Positions 56,056-56,374 of a DNA stretch of 64,000 nt are shown in pieces. The stretch is from Jejuia pallidilutea (GTDB lineage: Bacteria; Bacteroidota; Bacteroidia; Flavobacteriales; Flavobacteriaceae), in NCBI RefSeq assembly GCF_002973595.1, contig NZ_PVEO01000004.1, positions 1 to 64,000 on the forward strand, given 5' to 3'. Both the position numbers and the translations under genes were made by a program. Positions within the stretch are counted from its first letter, which is position 1, and every line of letters starts with the position of its first letter. Below the pieces are notes generated by a model that saw only the letters and a list, made by a program, of their open reading frames with translations, did no database searches and was not told where the DNA came from.

Positions 56056-56063
56056 CAATTTTA
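56056..56063 (-). promoter_or_regulatory. -7 box for the minus-strand PUL operon
   Basis: Minus-strand TAAAATTG, one mismatch to TAnnTTTG, 21 nt after the minus copy of the 18-bp motif and 19 bp before the GH2 start codon. Confidence 0.55.
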
Positions 56064-56084
56064 CTTTAAAAGAATAGATTTTGC

Positions 56085-56102
56085 ATCCTGTGCTATACTG
56101 TT
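56085..56102 (-). promoter_or_regulatory. 18-bp regulator motif, minus orientation
   Basis: Read on the minus strand: AACAGTATAGCACAGGAT. It matches the plus-strand copy at 56328-56345 in 17 of 18 positions and lies exactly 21 nt before a -7 box, as the other copy does. Confidence 0.7.
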
Positions 56103-56327
56103 TAAAAGAAGTATAATGTTTTTTTATTGTCGCTATGTAATAGAAATTAATAATTCACATACTTTAATATTTAATGAGGTTTTTAGACAGCTCCCAGATT
56201 GTTTTTTATACTTAATTAGATGATTTTGAATAATAAAAAAAGACAGAAACATCATTAAGGTTAAAATATGGAAGCGTAATAAGATTAGGTGCTGTAGTGG
56301 AATATGACGCAATACTAATAATGTGTT

Positions 56328-56345
56328 AACAGTATAGTACAGGAT
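56328..56345 (+). promoter_or_regulatory. 18-bp regulator motif, plus orientation
   Basis: AACAGTATAGTACAGGAT, 17/18 identical to the minus copy, 21 nt before the SusC -7 box. The -33 region is covered by the gap rather than a good TTTG, as expected for an activator-dependent promoter. Confidence 0.7.
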
Positions 56346-56366
56346 AGTTTTTGTTTAATGCTGCTT

Positions 56367-56374
56367 TAAATTTG
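56367..56374 (+). promoter_or_regulatory. -7 box for susC
   Basis: TAAATTTG, a full match to the Bacteroidota TAnnTTTG -7 element, 82 bp before the SusC start. Confidence 0.65.

Follow-up and report, generated by a model that had tools for sequence, protein, structure and literature searches.

Background

The AraR type of regulator, known from Bacillus subtilis, joins a GntR winged helix to a LacI-like sugar-binding domain; it controls sugar-use genes, reads palindromes and represses. At class II promoters served by PhoB, the tandem direct repeats of the Pho box, about one turn apart, replace the -35 element at a fixed distance from the -10 box. Of the GntR proteins characterised so far, the majority recognise palindromes and many act as repressors, and the MocR branch (GabR, TauR, PdxR) uses its GntR winged helix to read direct repeats two or three turns apart, several members being activators (PMC5320631). 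A survey of L-rhamnose regulons describes regulators of the DeoR, LacI and AraC types, with no GntR rhamnose regulator in its text; the regulons of DeoR-family RhaR include RhaEW, and their sites are direct repeats with a period of 10–11 bp (PMC3870299). In Bacteroides, FucR and ManR are GntR proteins and RhaR is of the AraC type, and the direct repeats of hybrid two-component systems (HTCS) have a mean distance of 21 bp (PMC3878776). AusR of Zobellia galactanivorans is reported to be a GntR repressor of alginate genes that is released by alginate products.

We analysed a stretch of 64,000 nucleotides (the window; contig C4:1-64000, NZ_PVEO01000004.1) of the 4.11-Mb draft genome of Jejuia pallidilutea, which carries a PUL with rhamnose-related genes. 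The regulator that we assign to this PUL has the domain combination of AraR but would read 10-bp direct repeats at one fixed promoter position. Like DeoR-family RhaR it would serve a rhamnose regulon with RhaEW from direct-repeat sites, although its DNA-binding domain is of the unrelated GntR family; like the MocR branch it would read direct repeats with a GntR winged helix, although its sensor is LacI-like rather than aminotransferase-like and the repeats are one turn apart. It can be likened to AusR as a GntR protein controlling PULs in a related marine flavobacterium. The promoters themselves recall the Pho box, in that the -33 element gives way to repeats spaced by roughly one turn, at a fixed distance from the -7 box; PhoB belongs to an unrelated family, and activation is here no more than likely. 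A literature search, with most subscription papers and regulon databases outside its reach, found no account of a GntR/LacI chimera that reads direct repeats one turn apart at a fixed distance from a -7 box. We regard the motif system as real and conserved, and the assignment of the regulator as well supported by the comparisons given below.

Motif copies and promoters

An initial annotation of the window reported an 18-bp motif, AACAGTATAG[CT]ACAGGAT, on both strands between two divergent PUL promoters, identical at 17/18 positions and equally distant from two -7 boxes. Both copies are present, and a base-by-base count gives 21 nt for each. Site 1 (56328–56345, plus strand; ACAGTAT-AGT-ACAGGAT), upstream of susC, is followed after a spacer at 56346–56366 by the box TAAATTTG at 56367–56374; site 2 (56085–56102, minus strand; ACAGTAT-AGC-ACAGGAT), upstream of the GH2 operon, is followed after a spacer at 56084–56064 by TAAAATTG at 56056–56063, which has one mismatch to TANNTTTG. 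Each site is a 10-bp direct repeat, CAGKAYAGYA-CAGGATAG; a palindromic reading was rejected, as the halves fail as inverted repeats and match as direct repeats. Beyond the motif there is no notable likeness between the two promoters, flanks and spacers both being different, which indicates a common element rather than duplicated promoter DNA. Dinucleotide shuffles of the window average 0.08 matches (at most 3 mismatches) and 0/100 gave two.

The genome scan that the annotation had proposed brought the number of copies to four. A third site, CTCAGGACAGAGCAGGAT (44132–44149, minus strand), lies inside the window and was overlooked there; it was found by a scan for ACAGGAT-N21-TANNTTNG (44103–44138, minus strand) and stands upstream of the genes for a 494-aa protein, a GH2 and a GH16 enzyme, exactly 21 nt before a second TAAATTTG box (44103–44110, minus strand). 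Site 4 first appeared as a partial copy at C4:68198 when the genome was scanned for the motif. It is located 4.2 kb outside the window, on the right side (contig 68197–68214, plus strand), where a rhamnose operon and the regulator gene diverge, and it stands 21 nt before the box TAAATTAG. A profile built from 53 sites by sequence only, these four among them, returns exactly the four in the whole genome, all in the PUL, at E values of 2.1e-7 (site 1), 1.6e-6 (site 2), 9.9e-5 and 0.0023 (site 3), the fifth-best match having an E value of 1.3.

Predicted target genes

With operon membership judged from gene spacing, the promoter of site 1 appears to head a SusC-like TonB-dependent receptor in which no STN domain was found (56457–59774, plus strand), a SusD-like protein (59786–61243, plus strand), a GH78 alpha-L-rhamnosidase that runs off the window (61365–64000, plus strand) and two sulfatases outside it. 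The promoter of site 2 would head seven minus-strand genes, for a GH2 beta-galactosidase-like enzyme (52839–56036), a rhamnosidase-like (6-hairpin) protein (50493–52835), an isomerase-like protein with an arabinose/fucose isomerase C-terminal domain (49048–50484), the rhamnose/proton symporter RhaT (47979–49019; NF010024 above cut-off), a sulfatase (46499–47962), a BD-FAE type esterase (45682–46581) and GH43 (44220–45698). That of site 3 would head, also on the minus strand, the 494-aa protein, which has no Pfam or NCBIfam match (42504–43988), a second GH2 (39244–42429) and GH16 (38332–39231), and that of site 4 a 701-aa aldolase/dehydrogenase of the RhaEW type with the rest of the rhamnose operon, namely rhamnose isomerase, an FGGY kinase, a class II aldolase and an FMN-dependent dehydrogenase.

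With RhaEW, rhamnose isomerase, a kinase and a rhamnose transporter among its targets, this has the gene content of an L-rhamnose catabolic regulon, which would respond to rhamnose or a catabolite. The initial annotation had proposed one activator for import and degradation genes; the idea of a single regulator is strongly supported by the genome-wide search, by phylogenetic footprinting and by the co-occurrence of site and regulator, and the regulon reaches further, to cytoplasmic rhamnose catabolism. The four switches most likely let one rhamnose-sensing regulator jointly turn on the import, cutting and burning of a rhamnose-rich algal polysaccharide, and the presence of GH78, GH2, GH43, sulfatases and rhamnose genes leads us to consider ulvan a candidate substrate.

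The GH16 end of the PUL lies 300 bp from the end of a set of conjugative-transposon genes (TraG, TraM, DUF4138/TraN; window 31783–38024), and no counterpart of the PUL turned up in the other genomes of the genus that were compared, so that it may have been acquired by transfer. A tRNA search of the window returned none. At 24645–28585 the window also holds a Gabija defence system, with GajA (PADLOC E 1e-286) followed by a GajB helicase (E 3e-227) and adjoined by a gene for a NERD-domain protein. To the right of the window, an alginate-type PUL directly follows the rhamnose operon (contig C4:77479-99641; L029, L030) and contains a chondroitinase B-like PL6, a heparinase II/III-like protein, alginate lyases, a SusC and an MFS protein.

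The proposed regulator

The annotation was right that no regulator gene of the PUL is visible in the window, since the gene sits 3.1 kb past its right edge (contig 67082–68125, minus strand, 347 aa), where it converges on the susC operon and diverges from the rhamnose operon. It had suspected a hybrid two-component or AraC regulator there, whereas the gene encodes a GntR/LacI chimera. The N-terminus is a GntR winged helix (PF00392, E 4.9e-10, 39.4 bits, cut-off 27) and the C-terminus a LacI-like sugar-binding domain of the Peripla_BP_3 type (PF13377, 31 bits, cut-off 26.5); no NCBIfam model reaches its cut-off. The AlphaFold model is confident (mean pLDDT 88.5), and its best matches in the PDB are the Lac repressor and other LacI members (E 7.5e-13 to LacI structures).

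Among the open reading frames of at least 150 aa in contig 38332–84283 this is the only regulator, and no HTCS gene is found there; ECF sigma and FecR genes are likewise absent from the window's PUL. An HTCS or AraC regulator was rejected because the locus has none and the repeat period is wrong, being 10 bp here and not the mean of 21 bp of HTCS repeats. Nor is the site the palindromic operator of a GntR/LacI chimera, as the conserved columns, in group A and in the galactose-linked paralogues described below, form a 10-bp direct repeat. Binding of the four sites by the chimera is well, if indirectly, supported by the comparisons that follow.

Conservation across genomes

Orthologues of the regulator (at least 55% identity) occur in 17/99 genomes, its own included; numerous named Flavobacteriaceae have them too, along with a small number of other Bacteroidota. 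The motif with its 21-nt spacer recurs in the 20-kb regions around them, in a set of 98 sites into which a few genomes enter twice: 49 stand before RhaEW (in 49 loci, as counterparts of site 4 in the divergent region between regulator and RhaEW), 11 before SusC, 9 before sulfatases, 3 before the regulator and 2 before GH2. When 117 non-redundant motif hits were picked blind to the -7 box, TANNTT[TA]G followed exactly 21 nt after the motif in 63, with 0.22 expected by shuffling, and elsewhere, out to 52 nt, in only 5, so that 63/68 boxes lie at 21 nt; the opposite strand has no spacing peak. At some promoters the repeat runs to three or four units that keep the 10-bp register (L158, L159, L218).

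The site also accompanies the regulator. The exact pattern AYAGYACAGGAT-N21-TANNTTNG is present in 15/17 genomes with the regulator and in 1/82 without it, the two exceptions among the former (G041 and G063) carrying variant sites, and a reversed control pattern was found in none of these genomes. By profile, the best E value is 5.4e-5 or lower in 13/13 regulator genomes and better than 0.012 in 0/18 without it (hand-computed Fisher p = 1/C(31,13), about 5e-9, ignoring relatedness), the profile having been trained partly on sites from several of the regulator-positive genomes counted. The most telling pair is G002 and G003, which belong to the same genus and have neither regulator nor site.

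As the window's SusC and GH2 have no close orthologues in the genus, promoter footprinting was done through two other genera. The window's SusC has three other good matches among 397 family genomes, and in G260 and G264 the SusC gene (43–45% identity) adjoins the regulator. Each of these genomes, whose sites are outside the profile's training set, has one site before SusC and one before RhaEW beyond the regulator, in every case with exactly 21 nt between site and box (TAGTATTG and TACTTTCG in G260; TATTATTG and TACTTTCG in G264).

A different arrangement is seen in G183, which holds an orthologue of most of this PUL (G183:C7 26000-47236; L299, L300, L303) with its genes on one strand. The two loci share SusC (75–80%), SusD (81%), GH78, sulfatases, the rhamnosidase-like protein, GH43, the 494-aa protein and the second GH2. 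No motif site was found in the G183 PUL, which has the closest homologue of the window's SusC; in their place, genes for FecR (65 bits, cut-off 24) and an ECF sigma factor stand directly upstream, and at the start of its SusC, unlike that of the window, is an STN-like extension (scoring 21.1 bits, under the 28.4 cut-off). The reading frame of the G183 SusC is broken in the draft, so the gene may be inactive or mis-sequenced.

Paralogous regulators

Paralogues of the regulator, about 40% identical, stand in the J. pallidilutea genome beside galactose genes (galactokinase, galT, aldose epimerase). Their recognition helix reads SRDTVLMAF, against SRDTVEKAY in the rhamnose regulator, and the direct repeat that accompanies them, also of 10 bp, is another one, with two copies of ACTRGTAGGK. 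In 13/20 of their upstream regions a 7-mer recurs exactly with a period of 10, where 0.1 are expected, and no other period is seen in more than one. That a changed recognition helix goes with a changed repeat argues that the GntR/LacI family reads the repeats. The galactose-linked repeats lie 18–22 nt or 3–9 nt from -7 boxes and in both orientations, as would be expected of a repressor. In the group D paralogues (32–38% identical), the same period test of the upstream regions gave no exact 10-bp repeat, and several of these regions contain GTACAGGATAG-like half-sites by eye.

Discussion

We consider it probable that the motif is the site of the GntR/LacI chimera, that it stands in for the -33 element, and that rhamnose or an early catabolite leads to activation of the four promoters. 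Two winged helices would bind in head-to-tail order, each to one of two half-sites that a single helical turn separates (ACAGKAY-N3-ACAGGAT). By the numbering for F. johnsoniae the -7 box spans -12 to -5 (PMC6847099), which would put the 18-mer at about -51 to -34, with its centre near -42, and the regulator beside an RNA polymerase bound at the -7 box. With rhamnose or an early catabolite bound in its LacI-like pocket, the regulator would activate susCD-GH78-sulfatases, the genes from GH2 through RhaT to GH43, the 494-aa protein-GH2-GH16 genes and the rhamnose operon (RhaEW, RhaI, kinase, aldolase, FMN dehydrogenase). The sites, their fixed spacing, the direct-repeat build, the joint occurrence with the regulator and the regulon are results of computation; binding, activation and effector are here inferred, the last from the LacI-like domain and the nature of the target genes.

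That the control is positive is likely because only one spacing is allowed and the -33 element is replaced. The sites stand at one fixed distance in place of the upstream element, which is the geometry of class II promoters, and a class II activator in contact with RNA polymerase would account for the restriction to a single spacing and a single strand across many genera. The contrast with the galactose-linked paralogues, whose repeats vary in distance and orientation, lends this reading further weight. A TTG where the -33 element would be is found in 0/60 sites, part of these columns being fixed by the motif; this is weak evidence, since the -33 element is weak in flavobacteria generally (PMC6847099). 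Against the proposed mechanism we count the general preference of GntR proteins for palindromes and the many repressors among them, AusR included, as well as the closest SusC homologue (80%, in G183), which is without a site, and the group D paralogues without a 10-bp repeat in the period test.

The same protein could instead be a repressor, keeping the -33 region blocked until it is released by rhamnose or a catabolite. Its site overlaps the promoter, the galactose-linked paralogues have the variable site positions of repressors, and AusR is reported to be a GntR protein that represses the alginate PUL of Zobellia. However, a repressor would not need a single spacing on one strand across so many genera, and the site replaces a good -33 element rather than overlapping one, so we regard repression as unlikely.

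It is very unlikely that some other protein encoded elsewhere, of the HTCS, AraC or another type, binds the sites and that the GntR gene is a mere neighbour. Direct repeats are usual for HTCS, AraC and DeoR types, and the window does contain an AraC-type gene (14047–15768; 573 aa, C-terminal AraC-type HTH), although this is close to genes for prolyl oligopeptidase and HlyD and a long way from the PUL, in which no further regulator was found among the open reading frames of at least 150 aa. The co-occurrence of site and GntR gene across genera, the parallel change of recognition helix and repeat, and the 10-bp period, where HTCS repeats average 21 bp (PMC3878776), all speak against such a protein. 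The fixed spacing, together with the ECF/FecR pair before the G183 locus, could also suggest that the motif is the promoter element of an alternative (ECF) sigma factor and not an activator site, but this is highly improbable: the box belongs to the primary sigma factor (TANNTTTG), some promoters have three or four repeat units, the window's PUL has no ECF gene, and the G183 PUL, which does, has no motif. Chance likeness, or one origin for two copies within 300 bp by local duplication, is practically negligible given the shuffles, the differing flanks and spacers, the own-genome profile and spacing counts and the conservation of the motif over many genera.

With an ECF/FecR pair and no sites in G183, one PUL appears to be under two kinds of regulator in different genera, which suggests that its regulation has been rewired between them. 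A wider generalisation is held more tentatively and might well prove too broad: GntR/LacI chimeras of Bacteroidota would read one-turn repeats head to tail, the rhamnose branch acting as class II activators whose site substitutes for the -33 element on primary-sigma promoters in a Pho-box-like manner, with a single polysaccharide locus having been rewired between this cytoplasmic sugar sensor and ECF/FecR surface signalling.

PUL control in marine Flavobacteriaceae is mostly unknown, and this analysis offers a regulator, a site and a regulon for their use of rhamnose polysaccharides. With two wirings of the same PUL at hand, one can test directly how PULs come to change their regulators. If activation is true, these promoters would provide a clear activator design for the unusual primary sigma factor of the phylum, together with a way of binding for GntR proteins that lies outside the palindrome rule.

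A simple scan rule, CAGKAYAGYRCAGGAT + 21 nt + TANNTTTG, finds such promoters in genus genomes. Nine other genomes of the genus (G001, G004-G009, G011, G013) have 8–19 motif-type promoters each, clustered in long stretches (e.g. G009:C7 162-365 kb, G004:C5 188-255 kb), and hold several GntR/LacI paralogues; the stretches are probably large polysaccharide islands run by this regulator family. In Hyunsoonleella jejuensis (L063:11578-12585), a motif-like site with 3 mismatches precedes a fructose-1,6-bisphosphatase gene divergent from RhaEW, again 21 nt before a -7 box, and gluconeogenesis may therefore join the rhamnose regulon in some species.
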